Program-made: the position numbers and the translations under genes
DNA from: Paludibacteraceae bacterium
GTDB lineage: Bacteria > Bacteroidota > Bacteroidia > Bacteroidales > Paludibacteraceae
Length of the DNA stretch: 39,847 nt
Assembly: GCA_017448345.1 (NCBI GenBank)
Contig: JAFSLP010000001.1
Span: 1 to 39,847 of the forward strand
Direction: 5' to 3'
The notes under the pieces: generated by a model
Databases searched by the model: none
What the model was told of the DNA's origin: nothing
The model's input: the letters and a program-made list of their open reading frames with translations, nothing else
Part shown: in pieces, positions 3,015 to 39,847 of the stretch
Layout: every line of letters starts with the position of its first letter
How positions within the stretch are numbered: the first letter of the stretch is position 1

Positions 3015-4783
3015 TCTTCGCAACAGGGGAGGGGAATCTCGCTAAAAACAGCATGAATGGTGAGGTCCTCGGTGACTTTCTCCCCAAAACATTTGTCCAT
3101 GTCAGGCGGGAAGTCAAACGGGTCCGCCCAGTTCGGATAAAGGACTGTCCATCCGCGGAGCATCGTTCCGTCCTCGCAGGGCACGACCTCATTTTTCGGG
3201 GCGACGAGCACCTGCGAACCGTCAGCCGCATATTCCGCCACTTCCAGCACCTCGCCGTTTGCCATCCATGTCACTTTGAACGGCGGTTCGCTGATATAGA
3301 CGAGCGAGACGACACCGTTCTTCTCGGTGATGTTCTTGAGCGGTTTGGCGGCTATCTTGTCCCATGAGCCGGATACTTGCGCTACCGTGAAACGGGGTTT
3401 GCGGTCTTCGCTGTTCGGGGCATTCTCTTGCCAAGCCGTCTTGCTGTAATTGACTTTCCATGCTATCAGTCCGTGTCCGGGCAGATAGGAATCCCACCCT
3501 TGCTTCTGCCGGTTCTCGATATAATAGACGGAAGCATTGTTCTTGAGGCTGTCGGTAGGTCCTACGGGCTGGTCCGCATCGGTTATCTGGTATGCCTGAT
3601 AGCCGTCCTGTCCGTCGGCGGTGAGCTGCAGTCTGGCTGGCTCCGAACCGGGGTTGACAGGCGTGTGCCAGCCGAAGAAATACTTCTCCCACGCGTTGTA
3701 GTTGGGCGGGCAATGCCCTCCGCCGTTGTACGCGCCGCCGTCCATGACATCCCATTTGCCGGGTGTGAGTTTGTGCTCGTCGTTATAGCCGTAGTAAATA
3801 TCATAGAAATCCGGCAAGCCCATCACGTGCCCGAACTCATGGCAGAGGGTCCCGATACCGTCCAGACCGGAGTCCGAGAGCTCGTTGGAGCACGCGTAGG
3901 TATTGATCATCTTGCCGTCCACATAACAGTCGGACAAACTGTATTCCGGTGTGAAATAGGGCACAAATTCCGCTCCGTATTCGGCATAGAACTCTTCGGG
4001 AAAATCGGTGTAATACTCCTCCATCTCCAGTTGCTCCGTGATGGAATAGCTGTGCGGCCAGATTGTCGTGGCAGAACCGCCTGACGCCTCGCCTTTGCCG
4101 GCATAGAGCACATAGACGAAGTCCACCTTGCCGTCATTGTCCGAGTCGTATTGCGTGAAATCCACGCCGAGCTCTTTGTCTGCTGTCTTGCATGCCTCTA
4201 CAATCATGTTTGCCGCCCGTGCATCATTCCCTACGACATCGTTTTCTCCGTAATAAGCGCCTTTCCTGCTCAGCGTGACTGGTCCGTAGACATCAAAGAC
4301 CGGCGCATACTCGCCGTTGGACTGGTCCTTGAAATAGGTCCTCGCGGAGGGATAACGGGTGCCGTAATACTCATTCACTTGGCAGTCCTCGGCATTGCAC
4401 AGCGAGTCAATGACTTCGTTGGTATGGTTTGCCTGAAACGCCTTGTCGGTATAGTTCACCATGATGACTATTCCTCGCGGAGCAAGGTTGGGCGTGACGC
4501 CGAACTCCTTGCGCACGCGGCGTACCTTGTTATACGCACGACGCGCACGCGCCTGCTGACGCGTCGGTGCCTGACCTGCCGCCACATACATGCCGTCGGC
4601 ATTGAGATGCACCTGCTGCCCCTCACGGTTAATCATATAATGGTAATACTCGTCGCCGACGAGTTGTAACTCTATCGTCGTGCCGTCGCCTTGGGCATAG
4701 GTCTGCCAGCCGGGTTTTGCCGGAACGGCATGGACGGCGCTTGCCAGCGCACAAAGAATAACTATAAAGAATATTTTTCGCAT
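3011..4783 (-). CDS. M6 family secreted zinc metalloprotease (first copy)
   Basis: A 590-residue protein with a signal peptide (1-19), an N-terminal propeptide-like part (about 20-100, with LVGDEYYHYMINREGQQV and an Arg-rich linker), and an M6 (immune inhibitor A-like) catalytic domain starting near NLAPRGIVIMVNY. The zinc site is HEFGHVMGLPDFYD (His about 315, Glu 316, His 319). [20 protein letters not shown] is a calcium-loop-like segment typical of the family. The end (about 515-585) has WMANGEVLEVAEY and DLTIHAVF, resembling an InlB/Listeria-Bacteroides repeat. It lacks the sorting-like C-terminal tail found on the second M6 protease (9129-10733). It should be exported and degrade extracellular proteins after loss of the propeptide. 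It is the first gene of a coupled series (M6, secreted protein, S26-like peptidase), probably read from the promoter at 5311-5342. Confidence 0.92.
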   Translation of the reverse strand: MRKIFFIVILCALASAVHAVPAKPGWQTYAQGDGTTIELQLVGDEYYHYMINREGQQVHLNADGMYVAAGQAPTRQQARARRAYNKVRRVRKEFGVTPNLAPRGIVIMVNYTDKAFQANHTNEVIDSLCNAEDCQVNEYYGTRYPSARTYFKDQSNGEYAPVFDVYGPVTLSRKGAYYGENDVVGNDARAANMIVEACKTADKELGVDFTQYDSDNDGKVDFVYVLYAGKGEASGGSATTIWPHSYSITEQLEMEEYYTDFPEEFYAEYGAEFVPYFTPEYSLSDCYVDGKMINTYACSNELSDSGLDGIGTLCHEFGHVMGLPDFYDIYYGYNDEHKLTPGKWDVMDGGAYNGGGHCPPNYNAWEKYFFGWHTPVNPGSEPARLQLTADGQDGYQAYQITDADQPVGPTDSLKNNASVYYIENRQKQGWDSYLPGHGLIAWKVNYSKTAWQENAPNSEDRKPRFTVAQVSGSWDKIAAKPLKNITEKNGVVSLVYISEPPFKVTWMANGEVLEVAEYAADGSQVLVAPKNEVVPCEDGTMLRGWTVLYPNWADPFDFPPDMDKCFGEKVTEDLTIHAVFSEIPLPCCEE

Positions 4784-29754: not shown

Positions 29755-29767
29755 GGGGTCCCCGATG
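29755..29767. repeat. Module boundary word, copy 1 (GGGGTCCCCGATG)
   Basis: The palindromic GGGGTCCCC followed by GATG occurs here, at 31351-31363 and, one C shorter, at 32997-33008. The three copies mark the edges of the two ATPase modules. A GAGTGCT/AGCACTC hairpin follows this copy. GGGGTCCCC also stands at 8-16. Confidence 0.7.
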
Positions 29768-29791
29768 AGTGCTGACGTAGCACTCAAATAA

Positions 29792-29871
29792 CCAAATGGT
29801 CAAATAAATAGTACTTGGTACATGACCAAGATTTGAAAAATAATCGTGCCATTGGCTAAGAAATGGTAAAT
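29792..29871. repeat. 80-bp structured block, copy A
   Basis: Matches 31459-31538 at 78 of 80 positions. It contains nested complementary words: CCAAATGG near the start against CCATTGG near the end, TCAAAT against ATTTGA, and an inner CTTGGT/ACCAAG hairpin (29814-29830). It also contains ATCGTGCC followed by TTGGCTAAGAAAT. It stands upstream of the promoter of the first ATPase gene. Confidence 0.85.
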
Positions 29872-29875
29872 GGAA

Positions 29876-29900
29876 TGTTCTTTGACATATTGGATTACCG
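29876..29900 (+). promoter_or_regulatory. boxA-like word and left inverted repeat of ATPase module 1
   Basis: TGTTCTTTGACA (29876-29887) resembles the boxA antitermination signal of rRNA leaders. CATATTGGATTACCG (29886-29900) is the inverted copy, with one mismatch, of 31294-31308 past the ATPase gene, and an exact one of 32941-32955. The nearest promoter (29938-29969) is downstream, so the boxA role requires a transcript from further upstream. Confidence 0.5.
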
Positions 29901-29937
29901 CAAATTTGCTTGATTTGGTAAATTTGTGAACGATTTA

Positions 29938-29969
29938 TTTGCGTATCTTAAAAAAAAATGCTACCTTTG
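29938..29969 (+). promoter_or_regulatory. Bacteroidota-type promoter for the first ATPase gene
   Basis: TTTG (29938-29941), 20 bp, TACCTTTG (29962-29969) followed by CAGCGAAA. The same last 15 bases occur at the promoter of the second ATPase. Confidence 0.85.
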
Positions 29970-30010
29970 CAGCGAAAATTTGTTAATAATCACAAAAATT
30001 CCTTGCAAAC

Positions 30011-31267
30011 ATGCGTTTCTCACGTTCAAAGTACTTGCAACAACTTCTCGCAGGAAGAGGTAATGGAATGGTTAAAATCATTACTGGTGTTCGGCGTTGC
30101 GGGAAATCATTCCTGCTTTTTGATATATTCCGCTCCTATTTATTGGACGAGGGCGTAGGCGAAGATCATATTATTGCGTTGACACTGGATCAACGGAATA
30201 TGAAAGCCTTGCGCAATCCGGACAGGCTATTGGAATATGTAGATGCTCATTTTATAGCTGATAACCAACCCCATTATATTATCCTTGATGAGGTGCAATT
30301 GGTGGAAGACTTTGTAGAAGTGCTACTTACGCTCATGCGCAAACCAAACACGGAAGTGTATGTCTCCGGCTCCAACTCCAAGTTCCTCTCCAGCGATGTC
30401 GTCACGGAGTTCCGTGGCAGAGGCGATGAGATACGCATGTACCCCTTGTCCCTCAGCGAATATATGGAAGGAATGGGCATGGACTACGCTACGGCTGCCA
30501 AGAACTATTTTGTGTATGGCGGTCTGCCACAAGTAGCGTTGATGGAGAATACACAGAAAAAAGAGGAATTCCTTCGCACAATGACCGAGGTGACTTATCT
30601 TCGGGACGTAGTGGACCGCAATCATCTGCGCAACGAGGAAGGCATGCGTGAACTGATACGCATCTTGGCTTCCACGATAGCCAGTTCTACGAACCCGACA
30701 AAGATTGCAGATACCTTCAAATCAGTTGCTCGGCTGCGTATCACAGATACGACAGTTCGCCAGTATATAGCCTACCTGCAAAATGCGTTCTTGGTAGAAG
30801 AGGCACTACGCTACGACATCAAAGGACGGCATTATATAGGCGCAGAGAGTAAGTATTATTTCGTTGACCCGGGTATTCGGAACGCTGTGCTCAATTTCCG
30901 GCAGATAGACGACGGACATCTGATGGAGAATATCATCTATAATGAGTTGCGCATGCGCGGATATTTGGTAGATGTGGGACGAGTGGAAACATGGCAAATT
31001 GTGGACGGGCAACGCCTGAGAAAGAATCTGGAGGTAGATTTTGTAGTCAATCGTGGTAGTCAGCGATATTATATCCAGTCTGCGTATGAAATGCCTGATT
31101 CTGTCAAAATGGCGCAAGAAAAGCATTCTCTGCAACTGGTAGATGACTCGTTTAGAAAAATCATCTTGGTACATGAAGACATCCTGCCCCGTAGAGACGA
31201 AAAAGGAATTATAACCATCGGACTAAAGCAATTTCTTACGGATGAGCATGCTATTGACTTAGCCTGA
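30011..31267 (+). CDS. AAA-type ATPase with DUF4143 C-terminal domain
   Basis: A 418-residue protein of typical family length. Walker A is GVRRCGKS (about 26-33), Walker B YIILDEVQLVEDF, a sensor-like segment is VYVSGSNSKFLSSDVVTEFR, then GRGDEIRMYPLSLSEYMEG. The C-terminal DUF4143 part has YFVDPGIRNAVLNFRQID, MENIIYNELRMRGYLVDVGR and LEVDFVV, the last resembling a nuclease-like ExD-type core. Such ATPases are present in many copies in Bacteroidota and archaea, and their role is not established; conflict or defence functions have been suggested. The gene has its own promoter and a terminator-like structure, in flanks shared with the next ATPase gene. It is more AT-rich than the envelope genes to the left. 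Confidence 0.88.
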   Translation: MRFSRSKYLQQLLAGRGNGMVKIITGVRRCGKSFLLFDIFRSYLLDEGVGEDHIIALTLDQRNMKALRNPDRLLEYVDAHFIADNQPHYIILDEVQLVEDFVEVLLTLMRKPNTEVYVSGSNSKFLSSDVVTEFRGRGDEIRMYPLSLSEYMEGMGMDYATAAKNYFVYGGLPQVALMENTQKKEEFLRTMTEVTYLRDVVDRNHLRNEEGMRELIRILASTIASSTNPTKIADTFKSVARLRITDTTVRQYIAYLQNAFLVEEALRYDIKGRHYIGAESKYYFVDPGIRNAVLNFRQIDDGHLMENIIYNELRMRGYLVDVGRVETWQIVDGQRLRKNLEVDFVVNRGSQRYYIQSAYEMPDSVKMAQEKHSLQLVDDSFRKIILVHEDILPRRDEKGIITIGLKQFLTDEHAIDLA

Positions 31268-31291
31268 GCACTATCATTTTAGTACTATTTC

Positions 31292-31368
31292 AGCGGTAAT
31301 CTAATATGAGTAACGAATACTCAAAGCGGATTACCGCTTTGTTGTATTGTGGGGTCCCCGATGTAAAT
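31292..31368 (+). terminator. Right inverted repeat and terminator-like structure of ATPase module 1
   Basis: AGCGGTAATC pairs with GATTACCGCT, and inside it TGAGTA with TACTCA; alternatively AAAGCGG, ATTA, CCGCTTT form a tight hairpin followed by GTTGTATTGT. The block ends with GGGGTCCCCGATG. It matches 32939-33013 with only a few changes. The first part is the inverted copy of the left repeat at 29886-29900. Confidence 0.7.
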
Positions 31369-31458
31369 GGTTACATTAGCAGCGGGGGAAGCGTAGCACA
31401 ATACGCAGCACCATACAAGCGCAGAGCGCGCAGTCGTGCACGGATTAGTGCAAGCGCG

Positions 31459-31538
31459 CCAAATGGTCAAATAAACGGTACTTGGTACATGACCAAGATT
31501 TGAAAAATAATCGTGCCATTGGCTAAGAAATGGTAAAT
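31459..31538. repeat. 80-bp structured block, copy B
   Basis: The second copy of 29792-29871, with two changed bases next to each other. It lies 230-310 bp upstream of the second ATPase gene. Confidence 0.85.
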
Positions 31539-31543
31539 AAGAG

Positions 31544-31610
31544 TGATCTTTGACATATTCGGACTCCGCCTTGCTTTGTGCAATTCCCCCGAATATAAGG
31601 GAGGAAGCTT
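31544..31610. other. Extra boxA-like word with a short inverted repeat, possible emptied module
   Basis: TGATCTTTGACA (31544-31555) overlaps ATATTCGG (31555-31562), whose inverted copy CCGAATAT is at 31589-31596. The order copies that of the ATPase modules (boxA-like word, left repeat, right repeat), but only 26 bp lie between the repeats. Confidence 0.4.
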
Positions 31611-31645
31611 TGCATATTTTGCCAAGGCAGACGCCTGAATATCTA

Positions 31646-31670
31646 TGATCTTTGACATATTGGATTACCG
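31646..31670 (+). promoter_or_regulatory. boxA-like word and left inverted repeat of ATPase module 2
   Basis: TGATCTTTGACA (31646-31657) and CATATTGGATTACCG (31656-31670). The latter is the exact inverted copy of 32941-32955 beyond the ATPase gene. Confidence 0.5.
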
Positions 31671-31707
31671 AAAAATAGTCGAAAGTCGAAAGAAAAAAGA
31701 CAAAAGA

Positions 31708-31739
31708 CTTGCATATATCGAAAAAAAACACTACCTTTG
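31708..31739 (+). promoter_or_regulatory. Bacteroidota-type promoter for the second ATPase gene
   Basis: CTTG (31708-31711), 20 bp, TACCTTTG (31732-31739) followed by CAGCGAAA. It excludes a TTG start at 31737, which lies in the -7 box. Confidence 0.85.
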
Positions 31740-31769
31740 CAGCGAAATTATTATAATTGCAATAATTAT

Positions 31770-32903
31770 ATGGATAATAATCGCATAAACCCCTTTGTCA
31801 TAGGGAGGTACCTGTCACCGGACTACTTCTGTGACCGTGAACAAGAGACGGTTTTTCTTACCAAACAGATAGTCAACGGGCGGAATGTGACTTTGATTGC
31901 AGACCGGCGTATCGGCAAATCAGGGTTGATAAGCCACGTCTTTATGCAGCCTGAGATACAAAAGCAGTTTTATACCGTAGTGGTTGATTTATATGCCACA
32001 AACAGCTTGGCTGAAATGGTATATACATTCAGCAATGAGGTATATAGGAGCGTGGAGCAGCAGTCAAAATCATGGAAGGACAAGTTCTTTCAGGTTATCT
32101 CTTCCCTGCGTGTAGGATTCAAGTTGGATGCCGTTACCGGTTCTCCCGCTTTTGATATCGGATTAGGCGATATTGCCGCACCGGAAATGACGTTGGAGCA
32201 AGTCTTCGTATTTTTAGAGGAGGCTGACAAGCCTTGCATAGTGGCTTTTGACGAGTTCCAGCAAGTGACCAAGTATCCGGAGAAAAACATAGAAGCATTG
32301 CTACGCACATACATCCAGCGATGCAAGAAGACGCAGTTCATCTTCTCAGGAAGCCGGAAACATCTGATGACGCAGATGTTCCTCTCGCCCTCCAAGCCGT
32401 TTTATCAAAGCACAATAAATATGGGGCTTGATCCTATACCATGTGATGCCTATACGGATTTCGCAAAACGGATGTTCCTCTTTGGCAAAAAGGACATAGA
32501 AGATGAAGTGGTAAAACAAGTATATGACTTATGCAGAGGTATAACATGGTATATGCAAATGCTTCTGAATGAGATGTTTACAATCACTGTTCCCGGGGAC
32601 TGCTGCAAGGTGAATGCCATAGACGAAGCCTTGCGTAATGTGGTGCAAGTCCAAGAACCTTTCTATCGGGAGATTCTGGCTGCATTGCCGACCAAACAGA
32701 AAGGGCTCCTATATGCCATAGTAAAAGAAAAAGGAGTGGAAAACATCACGTCCGGAGCATTTGTCCAAAAGTATAAATTAGTTTCTGCAAGTAGCGTTCA
32801 GGCAGCATTAAAAGGATTGTATGAAAAAGATATAGTGATGGAGAACAATGGCACATGGTATGTATATGATATATTTTTTGCACAGTATCTTTCAGGCAAA
32901 TAA
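31770..32903 (+). CDS. ATPase of the archaeal-type/STAND-like ATP-binding family
   Basis: The ATG at 31770 is chosen because the promoter -7 box covers the longer frame; it gives 377 residues. The start INPFVIGRYLSPDYFCDREQ is the usual opening of this family (PF01637-like). Walker A is ADRRIGKS (about 44-51), Walker B CIVAFDEFQQV, a sensor-like segment is FIFSGSRKHLMTQMF. The C-terminal part contains a winged-helix-like region (LYAIVKEKGVENITSGAFVQ, then ASSVQAALKGLYEKDIV) and ends YDIFFAQYL. The function of such stand-alone copies is unknown; nucleic-acid or partner-protein switching is plausible. It is unrelated at family level to the neighbouring DUF4143 ATPase, yet the flanks of both are nearly the same. 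Confidence 0.86.
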   Translation: MDNNRINPFVIGRYLSPDYFCDREQETVFLTKQIVNGRNVTLIADRRIGKSGLISHVFMQPEIQKQFYTVVVDLYATNSLAEMVYTFSNEVYRSVEQQSKSWKDKFFQVISSLRVGFKLDAVTGSPAFDIGLGDIAAPEMTLEQVFVFLEEADKPCIVAFDEFQQVTKYPEKNIEALLRTYIQRCKKTQFIFSGSRKHLMTQMFLSPSKPFYQSTINMGLDPIPCDAYTDFAKRMFLFGKKDIEDEVVKQVYDLCRGITWYMQMLLNEMFTITVPGDCCKVNAIDEALRNVVQVQEPFYREILAALPTKQKGLLYAIVKEKGVENITSGAFVQKYKLVSASSVQAALKGLYEKDIVMENNGTWYVYDIFFAQYLSGK

Positions 32904-32938
32904 AGGCGTAAGATAAATCCTGATTCATTTGTTTTTTT

Positions 32939-33013
32939 AGCGGTAATCCAATATGAGTAGCAATACTCAAAGCGGGTTACCGCTTTGTTGTATTGTGGGG
33001 TCCCGATGTAAAT
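32939..33013 (+). terminator. Right inverted repeat and terminator-like structure of ATPase module 2
   Basis: AGCGGTAATC pairs with GGTTACCGCT (one wobble) and TGAGTA with TACTCA; alternatively AAAGCGG and CCGCTTT form a hairpin (loop GTTA). A T run comes before the stem, and GTTGTATTGTGGGGTCCCGATG-type sequence follows it. The structure may work on both strands. Confidence 0.7.
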
Positions 33014-33109: not shown

Positions 33110-36100
33110 ATGAAAACAAAAATGAATCGTGCCCTACATGGGCAAAGAAAAACGTTCTTTTCCCAAGATGGGCAAAGAAAATTAAACCTTGCCAAACTGA
33201 AAGACTCCAACCTCTTTGGCTGGTCTGTTGGTGTAATCGTAGCACTCTTTGGTGCTTTAGGCATGTCGTTCACTCCTGTAGAGGAAGATGGTTCTTACCC
33301 CTCCCCTGAGAATGACTCCATCATCCTCAATTTAGGTGATACCACCCGTGTCATTGGAGGTCCGAGACGAAGTCACTGGCATTGGACAACTACATCCGGG
33401 TCAGGGTGTAGTGCAACGACGACTCCGCATTATCAAAGTTCGGTGGATTATGCCGAGACCAAAGTTCAAACAAGGGGTAATGGTTCTGCAACTATTTCTA
33501 CGACAGAGACCGCCAATGTGACGAGTGCTACATCGGCGTCAACCAATACAACGGCGGGAAGTACTGCGTCCATCTCTTGGAATAGTGGTCTTTCGCATAG
33601 TGACCAGACAACGGCAAAATACACTTCTGAACAAATTATTGCCGCTCACAAAAAAGTATTTACGCTTACTGCGGAGCCGATAAATGCTGACTATTATTTT
33701 CTTGGTTGGGGAACAAGTACCTCTGAGTCAAGTATAGTTTCTGCGGATAATCCATATACGGTTACATCCAATATGGGGATTACGGGATATACTGACGCTA
33801 GCTCACAACCTGCAAATTATGCGACAAATACCTATACCGAGACTTACTATGCGTTCTTTAGGGAGAGACTTCCGGCGAATATTACGCTGAAGTTACCGAC
33901 GAATGGTACGGTAAAATATTCGTATGAGAGTTATTCCAATGTGACTCTTTCTGCTGAAACGACTATCACAACAAAAGCAGACTTGACTCTTGTTGCCGTG
34001 CCGGATAAAAATTGTCGTTTCTATGGGTGGTACACCTTAGATGGTACAACAGAGAATTTTATCTCCACGTCAGAAACATATACTCGCGCATATCCGGATG
34101 ATATAACTATTTACGCCAAGTTTGTTCCTAATTCACAGGCAACCTTTACTATTAAGGGAACTGACCAGTATTTCTATGACTTAGGCCAAGCTTGTGCGGC
34201 GGCAGCATCTTCGTCATCAAAAATAGTCTATCCGATTGCAGACGGTACTGTGCCGGCGGGTAATTACACCATTCCGGACGGAGTTACCTTGCTGATTCCG
34301 TATGAGGGAACAACTTTGAATAAGTTAACGGCGCCGGCATTAACTTACTATGAGAAACCAGCGAATGTTCCCGCCCTCTCGTGCTATCGTAAGTTAATAT
34401 TATTGGAAGGAGCAAATATTACATGTAACGGGACAATTTGTGTAGGCGGTCAAATTGCTTCATTAGGAGGTGGCTATCCGTCCGGTTATCCTTTTGGTGC
34501 CTGCGGCGTGTTAGATATGAGCAATGGAGGACATATTGATTTAAATAGCGGCGCTAATCTATATGCATGGGGCTTTGTGAAGGGGCAAGATATGGATCAA
34601 GGAAATAACACTATTGGGGTAGGTACTATTACCGCTAAATCCGGCTCGAAAGTGTGGGAGGATTTTACGGGTGAAAACCGTGGAGGTTCTGCCTGTTCTG
34701 CATTAGCAGAGGATGGTAAGAGTTATAAGTCATTTCCGTTCCAGGGTTATGCGATCCAGAATATCGAAGTCCCTGTGACCTATCAATATCAATCTACGCT
34801 GCAAGTATATACGGCATTATATATTAGGGGTAATATTACAAAGGATTTCCCCTTGATAAGCTCTTCCGGTTCGTTGTTCTTGGTACAAAATAGTACATCA
34901 CAAGTGAGAAAATGGTATGACCCCACTACCGATCTCGCATGCTATGAATTAAGCGGAACCGCCAAGTTGGATGCAATTAATACTACTATTTATGTATCTG
35001 TTAATTCTGCGGATTTCAACTTGCCTATTTCCAGTAACATGCATATTATACTGGATAATTGTACAATGACATTATCGAATCCTGTCCAGATATTGCCGGA
35101 TGCGGTTATAGAAATTAAAGCAAATTCTACAGCCACCATTTCGTCTAATATGTTTATGTACGATAAAGACGACTGGAAGAAAGGTATTGGGGCGTATTAT
35201 TTTGCATCTTTTAAGAATCTCACAAGTCATAAAAATCGGGGTGATGGCACATCAAATGCCACTTTGGATGATGCGAAACTGATTGTGGATGGCACACTTA
35301 ACGTGACAGGTAAGCTCTACTCAACTACGGGTGGTGCCAATATTTGCGGTAATGGTGGCGGAACAATCACGTTTAGTTCGCTGCCAACGGCATCCAATTT
35401 ATATCAATGTTGGGGGGCTGTTAACGGTTCCGAGACCTACGAGGGTGTTGCTAATGTAAAATCATTCTCTTCTATAACAGGAGGAAAAACATATCTACAT
35501 GCCGTAGCTGTTAATTCGGCTAATTTACATAACGAAGATGGCAGTTATACTCAATCTGCCGCATCCTCCACTTTCCACAATGTAAACGGACGCTGGTTTA
35601 CTGCTGCAAATAAGGACGAAAATGAGTCAACACATGTCTATGATCACTTTATCTATATTTCAGATGGTCAACCGGTATCCGGTTCTTCGGGCTCAACAAC
35701 CGAAACAAAAGCTCTTTATGCTCCCGACAAAACAGGTCTAGTTGCCGGAATGAAATGGTGCAATGTGGTGCAAGATGGTACCTGTAGCAATATCTTTAAT
35801 GCAACGCAGGCACTCAACGAGACGCCGGCAAGCGATATTCGCTATACCTATCCGTCGGATAGTTGGCTGCAGTTGCTCAGGACAGAAACGGAAGGTGTCT
35901 ATGGTGGCTCTGATAATAGTCTGTACGCGGTTGACGGATGTGCTGTTAACTCTCTCGGATCCGTGGATGAGAACTGCTTGTACACGATTAACGATGTAAA
36001 AAAAGCGCTTGTAGATGGTCATTTCGTGGCTCTTGAGAAGAATACGGAAGACGAGGCATGGCATGATGTGGCTAACCCGACAAATTACTATATCAGCTTT

Positions 36101-39100
36101 GCCGGTTGTACTTGGCATCCGGCTACCAAATATGCAGGCGAGGAAAAGGCCTATATCGTAGAGGGTGGTATATACATCTGGTATAACAACGACTGGCTGC
36201 TCGTAGAGCGCGAAGATCCGTTCTTCTTCGATTACAACGATCAGAATGTTAAGCGCTACTATGAATATGATAATGGCGCATGGGTACTGGCATCTCCGCG
36301 TGTCCGCGTAGTGGATGCAATAGAAACGCGTGATTTCTATAAATTGCCTGATGCAATTACTGTTGCGTCCGGTAAAAAGAATGCCACCATCACTATCCTC
36401 AAAGACATCAGCGGTATAAACAACGAGATGACCTTCACGGCTGCCAACACCACTTGTACCCTTGATCTCAATGGTCATACTGTCAGCGGTGCTGTTCCCT
36501 TTACCGATGATAATAACCGGGGTATGCTTAAAATCAATGCATCAGGAACAACATTCACGATCACAGATAATAGTGCCAATAAAGAGGGTCGGTTAGAAAA
36601 TATCTGTAATCAGAATAAGGTAACTTATACCGTTCATTTGATGGCTGGTACGCTGAATGTGGAGCATGGTACCATTCATGCCGAGAACCCTGCACAATAT
36701 GCATCTAAAGTGGATGCTAATTTTGGTGTTTCCGAAACATTGACCGCTTGCGGCTCACGAGCCGTGCAAGTGGGTGCAGGTCAAAAACTGAATATCAATG
36801 GTGGACGCTTGGAGGCGTTTGCTACCAGAAATGCTTTTGGTATCGTGGCTTCCGGTAATAACGCTAATACAACGCAGGTGACTGTAACTAATGGCGAAGT
36901 CTATGCCGAAGCTCCTTGCGCCGCGTATGCGATCAACTGTTTAGGCAAACTGAATGTCAGCGGAGGATTGATAGAAGCCAAACTGAATGATCATCTTGTA
37001 GATGCTTCCTACGCTGCTACCGATGCTTCTAACAACATCAATAAGCACCAAACATGTCATGGCATTTATATGCAGGGTAGTGCCAACAAGGCGGCGACCA
37101 GTTGCTACTTTGGAACACTGACCATGACTGGTGGAACGGTGAAAGCAACATCGGATGTAGCGGCAAACTATATCTCCAATGTGTTTGGTATTAATCTGTA
37201 TGCGGATTTCGCCGGTACGGGGGCTGCAAATACAAAAGCAACCGATGGTACTCTATCGCAGAAATATGCTGCTAAAGCAACTATTGAAAATGCTAAAATT
37301 GAAGTCAATACCAAGGCTAATTACGGATATGGTATTATAGGATACGGACGTTATAATTCAGCAGATAAATCTACCTCTGTAATTAAAATCAAAAATACGG
37401 AAGTGGATGTGTATGCTCGCGCTTATGCATACGGTATATTATCATCAGTTCGAATAAGTTCCGGTACAGGAAACGGTGGTTGTACCAATGCAGACATTGA
37501 CTTAACCAATTGTGATGTTTATGCAGAAACCACTACCGCAGAAGGAGCATATGCAGTTTGGTCTTCGGCTACGCAGGGTGCAGTGTATGAATATACCTAT
37601 AAAGACGGTGTAGCGACAGCGACCAATAGCATATATGCTGGGGAATATGCTATCGGTGCTAATATGACCGTTCATAGCGGAAGGTATGAAGCAAAAACAA
37701 AAACTTCCAGCGCCTACGCATCAGGAACATCAACGAAGCAGATTAATACCTATTCCAGACACTCAGGAACGGCACTTTATCAGCAATTAGGCGGACAAGT
37801 CGAAGCCTATTCAACACTGAATATAGAAGATGGTACATTTATTGCAACGGCAGGAACGGAAACGGCTCGTGCAGTATCCAATGGTGGAAACACTACTATT
37901 ACCGGTGGAACGTTCCAAGCAACGGCAACAACGCGCTATGCATATTGTATCTATGCAATAAGCGGCACACTGAATGTGTCCAATGCCACTATTACTGCAA
38001 CCTCTAATAGTAATACTGCTAACGGAATCCATTTGGAGGGAACGATAGCCGCAAATACAATGTTTGCATATGCTCCTACTGCCACACTTACCAATCTGAA
38101 TGTTACAGCTACGACTGGAAGCAGTACAACTGCTCGTGCTCTATATGTGGCAGGCAAGGCACTAACACAGACAGAGGCTCAAAAAGAAGCGCTAACATCT
38201 TCGAATAGAAATAACTATTATAATATATATCAAGTAGGCGAAAAAGCAATTGCTCCTACGGTTACTGTTCATGGTGGAACGTATACCGCTACTGCGGGAA
38301 CAAGTTCTGCTTATGGAGCACATAGTCCGGGTACTTCTATTTCTACCAACAAAGTAGCAACCGCATCCCCTGTGATGAATCTTTATAATGCAACCTTTGT
38401 TGCTCAAACAGGAACGAGTACATCTGCCTATGGCGTTTCCGCAGGTGGTCCTACATTGATTGACGGTTGTACGATTACAGCAACAGCTGGAAATGCAACA
38501 AAATACCAGAGTACAGCTTCTGGTGTGCGTGCTGTAGATAAAACGACTACCATCAAGAACTCTACCATTACGGCTACTGCGACGGATGCCGCTTATGGTT
38601 TGGAAGGCTATGTGGAAATCAATGCTACACACGGTTATTGTTTCCATGGAGAGTTTGACCTCAGCGAAGCAGGGAATACAGAAGTTACAGCCGAGGCAAA
38701 AACAAGTGGAAAGAAAGCATACACAATTTACTTGAAATCTGCGAAGAAGAATATCGCTTCCGGCAATTTTGCAGGAGATTATGCTACGGCTGCCAGTGCA
38801 ACAATCAATGGTGGTACGTATAATGCAAAATTCACCACATCGGGTTCTGCGTATGTAATTTCGCTTGATGGCAAGCAGACGCAAGGAAGCGTTGTGACTC
38901 AACCGGAAGTGGAAGTGCTGGACGGTTTCTTTAATGGTGCTACTGCCGAAGTCGGAACAGCCGGTGTTGTCGGACATATGCAACTGAAAGGCGGTTATTT
39001 CGTACACCCGACCAACCTCGCTACCTACGCTGTTGCTCCAAAGTCCGTATGGACATTGCCCAATACACATGAGCATTACAATCCGTATAAGTATAAAGTA

Positions 39101-39847
39101 ACGGAGCACTATACCATTACTTTCAATAATGGTACAACCCCGTTACAGCAGAACGACTTGGAAGCAGGTACAACTCCGACTTATTCGGGAACGCCGACCA
39201 AAGACGCTGACGCACAATATACCTATACGTTTGACGGCTGGTCAACAACCAACGGAGGGGATAAATTAGCTGCGCTGCCTGCTGTTTCAGCGAACGCGAC
39301 TTACTATGCACACTTCAGCAAAGCAGAAAACAAATATACGGTATCTGTTGCGGCACGTACCAATGGTGCGGTTAGTCCGGCATCGGTGAGCGAGATTGGT
39401 TTCGAGACGGCATCAGGTGATATTACGGCTACGCCGGATGCAGGATACACATTCAGCGGATGGACACTGCCCGATGGCGTGACGGCGGCGAATGGATATA
39501 GTGCTACGAGCAACCCGATTCACATTCATGCCACCGCTGCGGGTAAGACCATTACGGCGAACTTTGTAGCGCGCAATGACATCAGCTACACCGTTAAGCA
39601 CTATCAGCAGAACATCGCTGACGATGACTATACTGAGGTAACGGCAGACAGACAAAACCTCACAGGAACGACCGCAGCGGAAGTAACGCCTGCTGTGAAG
39701 GAATACACCGGCTTTACTGCTCCGAGTACGCAGACGAAGGCTATTGCAGCAGATGGCTTGATGGTTATTGAGTACCGATACACGCGTAATAGCTATACTT
39801 TGTCATGGGTAACGGACGGTGATGCACTGACGGGTAGTTATACAAAC
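33110..39847 (+). CDS. Giant repetitive surface protein (adhesin-like), 3' end outside the window
   Basis: One open frame runs from ATG 33110 (or 33122) to the window end: 2246 codons with no stop seen. Residues about 35-55 (GWSVGVIVALFGALGMSF) are a signal or anchor segment after a basic stretch in which a 10-residue unit is doubled (HGQRK, DGQRK). InlB/Flg_new-like repeats follow (about 184-340: YYFLGWG, RFYGWYTLDG, ITIYAKFV). A long beta-rich middle follows. From about residue 1160 to 1960 some 15 degenerate units of 25-40 residues share the pattern [IV]xGGxYxA...AYG[IV] (for example TVHGGTYTATAGTSSAYGAH, LNINGGRLEAFATRNAFGIV), as expected for a beta-solenoid. InlB/MucBP-like repeats resume after about 2000 (YTFDGWSTTNGG, YTFSGWTLPDG). 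It probably binds host or plant-fibre material at the cell surface. No promoter is clear. A sorting tail would lie beyond the window. Confidence 0.85.
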   Translation, partial: MKTKMNRALHGQRKTFFSQDGQRKLNLAKLKDSNLFGWSVGVIVALFGALGMSFTPVEEDGSYPSPENDSIILNLGDTTRVIGGPRRSHWHWTTTSGSGCSATTTPHYQSSVDYAETKVQTRGNGSATISTTETANVTSATSASTNTTAGSTASISWNSGLSHSDQTTAKYTSEQIIAAHKKVFTLTAEPINADYYFLGWGTSTSESSIVSADNPYTVTSNMGITGYTDASSQPANYATNTYTETYYAFFRERLPANITLKLPTNGTVKYSYESYSNVTLSAETTITTKADLTLVAVPDKNCRFYGWYTLDGTTENFISTSETYTRAYPDDITIYAKFVPNSQATFTIKGTDQYFYDLGQACAAAASSSSKIVYPIADGTVPAGNYTIPDGVTLLIPYEGTTLNKLTAPALTYYEKPANVPALSCYRKLILLEGANITCNGTICVGGQIASLGGGYPSGYPFGACGVLDMSNGGHIDLNSGANLYAWGFVKGQDMDQGNNTIGVGTITAKSGSKVWEDFTGENRGGSACSALAEDGKSYKSFPFQGYAIQNIEVPVTYQYQSTLQVYTALYIRGNITKDFPLISSSGSLFLVQNSTSQVRKWYDPTTDLACYELSGTAKLDAINTTIYVSVNSADFNLPISSNMHIILDNCTMTLSNPVQILPDAVIEIKANSTATISSNMFMYDKDDWKKGIGAYYFASFKNLTSHKNRGDGTSNATLDDAKLIVDGTLNVTGKLYSTTGGANICGNGGGTITFSSLPTASNLYQCWGAVNGSETYEGVANVKSFSSITGGKTYLHAVAVNSANLHNEDGSYTQSAASSTFHNVNGRWFTAANKDENESTHVYDHFIYISDGQPVSGSSGSTTETKALYAPDKTGLVAGMKWCNVVQDGTCSNIFNATQALNETPASDIRYTYPSDSWLQLLRTETEGVYGGSDNSLYAVDGCAVNSLGSVDENCLYTINDVKKALVDGHFVALEKNTEDEAWHDVANPTNYYISFAGCTWHPATKYAGEEKAYIVEGGIYIWYNNDWLLVEREDPFFFDYNDQNVKRYYEYDNGAWVLASPRVRVVDAIETRDFYKLPDAITVASGKKNATITILKDISGINNEMTFTAANTTCTLDLNGHTVSGAVPFTDDNNRGMLKINASGTTFTITDNSANKEGRLENICNQNKVTYTVHLMAGTLNVEHGTIHAENPAQYASKVDANFGVSETLTACGSRAVQVGAGQKLNINGGRLEAFATRNAFGIVASGNNANTTQVTVTNGEVYAEAPCAAYAINCLGKLNVSGGLIEAKLNDHLVDASYAATDASNNINKHQTCHGIYMQGSANKAATSCYFGTLTMTGGTVKATSDVAANYISNVFGINLYADFAGTGAANTKATDGTLSQKYAAKATIENAKIEVNTKANYGYGIIGYGRYNSADKSTSVIKIKNTEVDVYARAYAYGILSSVRISSGTGNGGCTNADIDLTNCDVYAETTTAEGAYAVWSSATQGAVYEYTYKDGVATATNSIYAGEYAIGANMTVHSGRYEAKTKTSSAYASGTSTKQINTYSRHSGTALYQQLGGQVEAYSTLNIEDGTFIATAGTETARAVSNGGNTTITGGTFQATATTRYAYCIYAISGTLNVSNATITATSNSNTANGIHLEGTIAANTMFAYAPTATLTNLNVTATTGSSTTARALYVAGKALTQTEAQKEALTSSNRNNYYNIYQVGEKAIAPTVTVHGGTYTATAGTSSAYGAHSPGTSISTNKVATASPVMNLYNATFVAQTGTSTSAYGVSAGGPTLIDGCTITATAGNATKYQSTASGVRAVDKTTTIKNSTITATATDAAYGLEGYVEINATHGYCFHGEFDLSEAGNTEVTAEAKTSGKKAYTIYLKSAKKNIASGNFAGDYATAASATINGGTYNAKFTTSGSAYVISLDGKQTQGSVVTQPEVEVLDGFFNGATAEVGTAGVVGHMQLKGGYFVHPTNLATYAVAPKSVWTLPNTHEHYNPYKYKVTEHYTITFNNGTTPLQQNDLEAGTTPTYSGTPTKDADAQYTYTFDGWSTTNGGDKLAALPAVSANATYYAHFSKAENKYTVSVAARTNGAVSPASVSEIGFETASGDITATPDAGYTFSGWTLPDGVTAANGYSATSNPIHIHATAAGKTITANFVARNDISYTVKHYQQNIADDDYTEVTADRQNLTGTTAAEVTPAVKEYTGFTAPSTQTKAIAADGLMVIEYRYTRNSYTLSWVTDGDALTGSYTN

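Follow-up and report, generated by a model that had tools for sequence, protein, structure and literature searches.

Two ATPase genes that lie in tandem between near-identical flanks in a Paludibacteraceae genome are, judging from sequence comparison, probably members of a family of short, non-autonomous, exchangeable gene cassettes found in one Bacteroidales genus. They are located in a stretch of 39,847 nt, referred to below as the window (positions 1 to 39,847 of contig JAFSLP010000001.1, GenBank assembly GCA_017448345.1; here contig C85 of genome G000, which is 2.5 Mb in 120 contigs and 80.6% complete). In each cassette, cargo and a promoter of its own would be enclosed by a 12-16-nt motif present in two inverted copies. 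The left copy would be fused outwardly to a boxA-type word, and the right copy would form, in most forward cassettes, the left arm of a hairpin terminator. An enzyme acting in trans may exchange or invert the cargo at the inverted motifs, as in cassette exchange or dif modules. The boxA word and the terminator might insulate the cassette from transcription of the upstream gene, with boxA acting on transcripts that arrive from upstream. A preliminary description of this DNA had proposed a cassette family that spreads ATPase genes, and this idea is supported in a modified form.

Cassette ends and their distribution

The two units share one order, namely boundary word, 80-bp block, CATATTGGATTACCG, promoter, ATPase gene and right-end hairpin, and all the parts of these tandem units that the preliminary description had named were found in their places. 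The features, all on the forward strand, are as follows.

29755-29767 (unit 1) and 31351-31363 (between the units): boundary word GGGGTCCCCGATG
29755-29875: left linker of unit 1, GGGGTCCCCGATG plus the 80-bp block
29792-29871 and 31459-31538: copies of the 80-bp block, identical at 78/80 positions
29876-29900: left end of unit 1, TGTTC plus the box TTTGACATATTGGATTACCG, that is, the boxA-type word with the left copy of the inverted motif
29886 and 31656: copies of CATATTGGATTACCG
29939-29977: Bacteroidota-type promoter of unit 1, TTG ... TACCTTTGCAGCGAAA, with TACCTTTGCAGCGAAA at 29962
30011-31267: cargo of unit 1, a 418-aa ATPase with AAA_14 and DUF4143 (Pfam)
31292-31338: right end of unit 1, a hairpin whose left arm AGCGGTAATCTAATATG is the box in inverted form and whose right arm is GGATTACCGCT
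31351-31543: linker between the units, GGGGTCCCCGATG plus the 80-bp block
31544-31642: non-coding module, boxA word TTTGACATATT at 31549 with a different tail, CGGACTCCGCC ... GGCAGACGCCTGAATAT (by eye)
31646-31670: left end of unit 2, TGATC plus the box TTTGACATATTGGATTACCG
31709-31747: promoter of unit 2, TTG ... TACCTTTGCAGCGAAA, with TACCTTTGCAGCGAAA at 31732
31770-32903: cargo of unit 2, a 377-aa ATPase_2-like protein
32939-32984: right end of unit 2, a hairpin with arms AGCGGTAATCCAATATG (left) and GGGTTACCGCT (right)
32997-33008: third boundary word, one C shorter, GGGGTCCCGATG

The two genes do come from different families, as had been claimed. The unit 1 protein carries AAA_14 and DUF4143 and matches the PADLOC defence candidate PDC-S01 (E 3.5e-108); that of unit 2 is similar to ATPase_2 and AAA_14, under both Pfam cut-offs, and has no PADLOC match. 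The right ends fold at -22.6 (unit 1) and -24.5 kcal/mol (unit 2), with z-scores of -5.3 and -5.7 and with 0/200 shuffles folding as well, and the box and right motif copies of the two units pair over ~16 and ~15 nt. An Rfam search of the window returned nothing at gathering scores. Behind the cassettes, at 33110-39847, runs an open reading frame (ORF) of more than 2,200 codons that is still open at the window end; surface-type genes often adjoin cassettes elsewhere.

The preliminary description had taken the 80-bp block as part of the conserved flank around exchanged cargo. In a similarity search of its own genome this block gave partial matches only, and the box and right hairpin recur there with other cargo. 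The block and the word GGGGTCCCC therefore look like local linker rather than cassette ends, and it is the box and hairpin that flank diverse cargo. Among the other cassettes of this genome, C50 carries a PIN pair, C42 a ParE pair and C94 a small ORF together with a GNAT protein; C5 and C97 hold further ATPases (reversed in C97), and the short ORF of C89 matches DUF4143 only below threshold. GGGGTCCCC, a near-palindrome, was seen close to right ends in the window (29755, 31351, 32997) and in loci L094, L106, L117, L158 and L172, and may be a separate short repeat. The non-coding module of the window (31544-31642) likewise has counterparts in L063, L066, L092, L134, L144 and L169. It is ~100 bp long, begins with a boxA word that has a different tail (CGGAC...GCC), possesses inverted ends of its own, and often lies directly before a cassette.

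The true left end is the 20-nt box TTTGACATATTGGATTACCG preceded by YGNTC, the two together making a boxA-type word; YGNTC stands before the box over 126 contexts, and its G is invariant. BoxA is a Nus-factor site, with the form YGCTCTTTAACA in E. coli. The same word occurs in rRNA operons of the genus, and the boxA role is predicted from the word. In a sister genome (L227), GATCTTTGACATATT lies ~140 nt behind 16S, presumably in the 16S-23S spacer, and boxA-related words stand ahead of 16S in L228 and L233; the remaining rRNA loci examined had no boxA word upstream of 16S. A promoter-like site follows the box in 67/71 forward cassettes longer than 350 nt, compared with 7.4% of random windows. 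The gene upstream of the box is co-directional in 87 cases, opposite in 20 and lacking in 5 (n=112), with a median gap of 156 nt to a co-directional gene. The 51 nt before 126 boxes fold at a mean of -11.6 kcal/mol against -8.6 for random stretches of the same loci and have no sequence in common; some of these folded stretches may be terminators of the upstream gene. Short repeats of ~30 nt, noted by eye between box and promoter in L107, L111, L114, L118, L163, L178, L189 and L194, are perhaps operators of the ATPase genes.

With up to one mismatch, the box was found in 79/178 genomes of the genus, and the backwards pattern 0 times among the matches listed. It was absent from 390 genomes that represent 205 further genera of the order (393 were scanned, three of them from the genus itself, and only G000 and G063 matched). 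The exact box was also sought in 84,980 species genomes, where 108 stretches contained it. Of the 80 with a listed title, 79 name Bacteroidales or Paludibacteraceae and one Eubacterium; many name ruminants or gut. The only contig of a viral collection with an exact box was L198 (IMG/VR; box at 3184-3203, minus strand). Its cassette encodes a helix-turn-helix (HTH) protein flanked by two ORFs without a Pfam match; the DNA before its box resembles a tRNA 3' end by eye, and ARAGORN calls no tRNA there.

At the right end, the left arm of the hairpin, AGCGGTAATCCAATA, is the inverted copy of the box, so that both cassette ends carry the same 12-16-nt motif in opposite orientation, (CA)TATTGGATTACCG ... 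CGGTAATCCAATA(TG). After counting identical contexts once, allowing up to two mismatches and setting aside loci L061-L089, there were 131 distinct boxes, 77 of which are followed by a right hairpin within 5 kb. Across these 77 right ends, conservation at the single positions of the left arm AGCGGTAATCC ranges from 94 to 100%, in a search that tolerated one change in this arm and two in its partner. The loop AATA that follows, outside the search pattern, is conserved at 87, 96, 83 and 69%, and the right arm is variable and even mismatched (A-C in 16/77, T-T in 12/77). The invariance of left arm and AATA is explained by the match to the box and not by stem pairing alone. A second, inverted boxA-like word lies behind the right hairpin in 3/77 cassettes (L103, L127, L132).

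Cargo and its exchange between flanks

Between shared ends the 77 complete cassettes hold diverse cargo. Sorted by a layout rule, 27 have P-loop ATPases, 21 at least two small ORFs, 14 a single small ORF and 8 other large ORFs; the remaining 7 have no ORF. Among the eight, L090, L132, L153 and L113 lie above a Pfam ATPase cut-off and window unit 2 below, L143 is Bro-N and L192 KilA-N; L139 was not scanned alone. The Pfam families found at E 1e-3 in 95 cargo ORFs include AAA_14 (33), DUF4143 (17), ATPase_2 (14), YoeB (8), ParE (7), HTH_3 (5), Gp49 (4), PIN_3 (3) and YafQ (1). No transposase or recombinase is among the families listed (the best 25 of 36 at E 1e-3, and 16/16 at 1e-8), in line with the earlier remark that the units contain neither integrase nor transposase. 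The cargo is mostly ATPases (AAA_14/DUF4143, ATPase_2) or toxin-antitoxin-like genes. The suggestion that the family carries ATPase genes captured one common class, and the toxin-antitoxin-like genes form another that it had missed. Single PADLOC models of PDC-S01 match up to 32 members and those of PDC-S27 up to 9, and partial ATPase matches were found in 7 plasmid and 2 phage records. A bovine rumen study (PMC13356809) reported PDC-S01 to be the individual defence locus that occurs most often. Both toxin-antitoxin-like genes and defence-candidate ATPases would fit as cargo that gains from mobility.

The association between flank and cargo was then compared pair by pair, with sequences called different only if they gave no hit at all (120 eligible boxes; 69 of the 77 hairpins). 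By this strict recount, 59 pairs (52 cassettes) have the same cargo behind unrelated left flanks, 33 pairs (38 cassettes) have a common left flank before unrelated cargo, and 8 pairs share both. Identity in the same-left pairs is at the unrelated level from +20 (0.36 vs 0.35), and in the same-cargo pairs it is near that level from -3 leftward (0.46 vs 0.41), which places the left switch inside the box. The right end gave 18 and 22 exchange pairs in 69 cassettes. Identity over the loop and right arm comes close to background when the cargo is the same and lies somewhat above it when the flank is the same; similarity near the hairpin is ragged, so that the right switch can be placed only at or near the hairpin. 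The strict recount was used because one of two looser counts misfiled some pairs, L157/L166 as having different left flanks and L175/L177 as having different cargo. That count (120 boxes) gave 54 pairs with the same left flank only, 67 with the same cargo only and 8 with both, and 20, 29 and 4 at the right end (69 cassettes). The other (127 boxes) gave 89 pairs sharing the left flank and not the cargo start, 71 the reverse and 19 both, and 15, 15 and 3 at the right end (76 cassettes). In all counts, exchange pairs are non-independent events.

The swapping of units that the preliminary description had envisaged was seen both as one site with different cargo and as one cargo at different sites. 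One such site is that of L195, where a 399-aa ATPase stands in place of the unrelated 379-aa AAA_14/DUF4143 ATPase of L218; the latter type is shortened in L217 and left as a remnant in L166, at the same site. The left flank of L195 is 91.7% identical to that of L166 (301 nt) and 97.8% to that of L218 (93 nt), and the right flank is 95.2% identical to that of L166 (397 nt), with the cargos lacking any hit to each other. Similarly, L148 and L177 have a left flank that is 97% common, and their cargo starts differ.

In nine cassettes from different genomes the ATPase gene is reversed between the motifs; an inversion within one strain is not among these. They remained from 12 reversed rows after three that rested on short ORFs (L145 and two of L151) were excluded. 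The reversed ATPase gene has its stop codon within the box or just a few nt past it, and 7/9 of these cassettes finish in GGTAATCC[AG]AT without a terminator arm. This indicates that the common right end is the inverted motif and not the terminator.

Several observations weigh against a mobile, exchangeable family. The right switch is unsharp, with cargo-side similarity weak in the 14 nt that precede the hairpin, and some same-flank pairs resemble each other upstream of the hairpin too. Left-arm conservation is partly built in by the tolerance of the search, and 46/131 boxes, many of them near locus ends, have no right motif within 4.5 kb. No mover was identified, and moving, circular or excised forms were not observed. 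The motifs are joined within 30 nt in 0/178 genomes, leaving no clean empty site, and the L195 site is filled in 4/4 genomes that hold both flanks. Inspection of a few ends by eye revealed no target duplication. The L211 genome also holds a second copy of the AraC-side site, with a box; L211 itself had been considered as the empty allele of this site and was rejected, as it has no box but its right flank differs. The spread proposed in the preliminary description is therefore borne out as far as the same ends with swapped cargo go; active spread is what we infer from them, since excised, circular or freshly moved forms were not among the observations.

Candidate movers and rival explanations

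Recombinases were also searched for across the 178 genus genomes. An integron origin was rejected, as the integrase model TIGR02249 was above its cut-off in 0/178 of these genomes, which are incomplete metagenome-assembled genomes. Weaker matches of Xer or phage type occur in 177/178, and one stronger tyrosine recombinase (128 bits, cut-off 265) is encoded ~12 kb away from the single box in G040. Serine recombinases occur in 124/178 genomes and were rejected as box-associated (57/79 box-positive and 67/99 box-negative genomes, p 0.62). Genes of this type lie beside cassettes or small toxin-like genes in the following loci.

L243, 2751-3356: serine recombinase gene
L244, 2755-3378: serine recombinase gene
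L245, 2097-2738: serine recombinase gene
L249, 1355-1957: serine recombinase gene
L250, 1328-1930 and 3095-3697: serine recombinase genes

The L243 protein is above the Mpi family cut-off and its gene adjoins a cassette, as do similar genes in L244 and L245, three loci that were chosen for this nearness. L127 has a serine recombinase as well, and a boxA-like word was noted by eye behind 5/11 serine recombinase genes examined. A scan of neighbours covered 133/370 flanking ORFs with 25 of 110 families listed, so single recombinases can escape it. At E 1e-3 the Y1 family PF01797 has matches in 68 genomes, and in 48 of them the cut-off is exceeded; the family is box-associated (p 3e-4), which led to a search with a RAYT-like profile. 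Proteins with this domain, of 340-400 aa, are encoded in 128/178 genomes (e.g. L256, L257, L260, L263), two of the genes being in the window's own genome. They are present in 69/79 box-positive and 59/99 box-negative genomes (p 4e-5, kinship ignored; p 0.0006 when permuted within size classes), and three such proteins tested all fall below the NCBIfam RAYT cut-off.

The explanation that we favour, and regard as probable, is the family of exchangeable cassettes outlined at the start, with an enzyme acting in trans. Its boldest form, somewhat less likely than not, is an exchange system of its own kind. The enzyme would recognise the inverted motif, with one copy fused to an rRNA-type boxA and one built into the terminator, and would trade insulated ATPase and toxin-antitoxin plug-ins across species of the rumen genus. 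Unlikely, though still deserving weight, is that no dedicated enzyme is involved and that ordinary recombination or template switching between short ends and linkers, together with hairpins and transfer between strains, produced the same mixture. Linkers are indeed also repeated within arrays, and the failure to identify a mover suits this explanation. However, outside 20-25 conserved nt the exchanged flanks of the strict set have no detectable similarity, which leaves little for RecA, and the nine reversed cargos retain box and right motif in place. Two candidate enzymes would be special cases of the favoured explanation. A RAYT-like HUH transposase that moves hairpin ends is unlikely: the association with the box and the two genes in the window's genome speak for it, but kinship was ignored in that association, 59 box-negative genomes have the gene and 10 box-positive ones lack it, and the proteins tested stay below the family cut-off. 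The palindromes beside L257 and L260, moreover, look unlike cassette ends by eye, and reversal between inverted motifs is atypical of such enzymes. We consider it improbable that an Mpi-type serine invertase flips or exchanges the cargo. The inverted motifs, the cargo in both orientations and the Mpi-family gene next to a cassette would suit such an enzyme, yet serine recombinases show no association with the box, and G018, which is listed as 98% complete and has four boxes, has no serine recombinase.

It is more improbable still that the cassettes are not mobile, box and hairpin being a functional transcription module shared by selfish or defence operons. This would account for a boxA word like that of rRNA operons and for the co-directional upstream genes (87/112), but flanks and cargo mixed with the switch in the box, unrelated cargo at one site and reversed cargo speak against it. 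As to the window alone, it has a negligible probability that one unit was recently duplicated in place and its gene then replaced. The linkers of the two units are nearly the same, and local duplication may explain this for the linkers only; the two genes come from different families, and more than 100 other sites have the same ends. Neither flanks confined to these two genes nor a duplication that covers coding sequence was found.

If the proposed exchange system is true, toxin-antitoxin pairs and candidate phage-defence ATPases would be packaged and exchanged without an integron or an enzyme-carrying transposon. The 20-nt word and the hairpin would then serve as a handle to list defence and addiction genes by position, including unknown ones, and the cassette ends would also offer a route to the mover. 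Cassette ends made of boxA and a terminator would tie the control of transcription to the mobility of genes in an unusual way.

Relation to known systems

No account of these cassettes was found among the titles and abstract openings listed by topic searches of the open-access literature, in which the motif itself was not searched. Integron gene cassettes form arrays of small cassettes, many with toxin-antitoxin genes, and have a hairpin at the 3' end. These traits are shared by the cassettes described here, which differ in that they have promoters of their own, are separated by linkers, carry an inverted pair of end motifs and lack an integrase above cut-off. The invertible segments of Bacteroides, served by Mpi-type invertases, have inverted repeats around a segment that occurs in both orientations. 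Our cassettes also hold cargo in both orientations between inverted repeats, in a genus that has an Mpi-family gene, but whole cargo is swapped rather than a promoter alone being flipped, and there is no association with serine recombinases.

Mobile insertion cassettes (MICs) carry passenger genes between inverted repeats and have no internal transposase. The elements named TIMEs are likewise presented, in PMC4133298, as passenger genes between inverted repeats with no transposase inside. Terminal inverted motifs around passenger genes, with no transposase among the families listed, were also found here; a parent element with these repeats was absent among the cassettes scanned, no dedicated search being made. 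Unlike MICs and TIMEs, flanks are exchanged at the ends, and no target duplication was seen by eye. The closest parallel is with the dif (pdif) modules of Acinetobacter plasmids, for which PMC13141974 describes small modules, often toxin-antitoxin, between short sites that enzymes in trans shuffle, invert and swap, as reported from one genus. Inverted sites around modules that are often toxin-antitoxin, with swapping, were found in our set too, whereas the sites here are 12-16-nt motifs fused to boxA and terminator, on the chromosomes of a rumen Bacteroidales genus. The cassettes are non-autonomous gene cassettes that are not placed within dif modules, TIMEs, MICs or integron cassettes; by analogy of layout, cargo and swapping, Xer sites aside, they would work most like dif modules.

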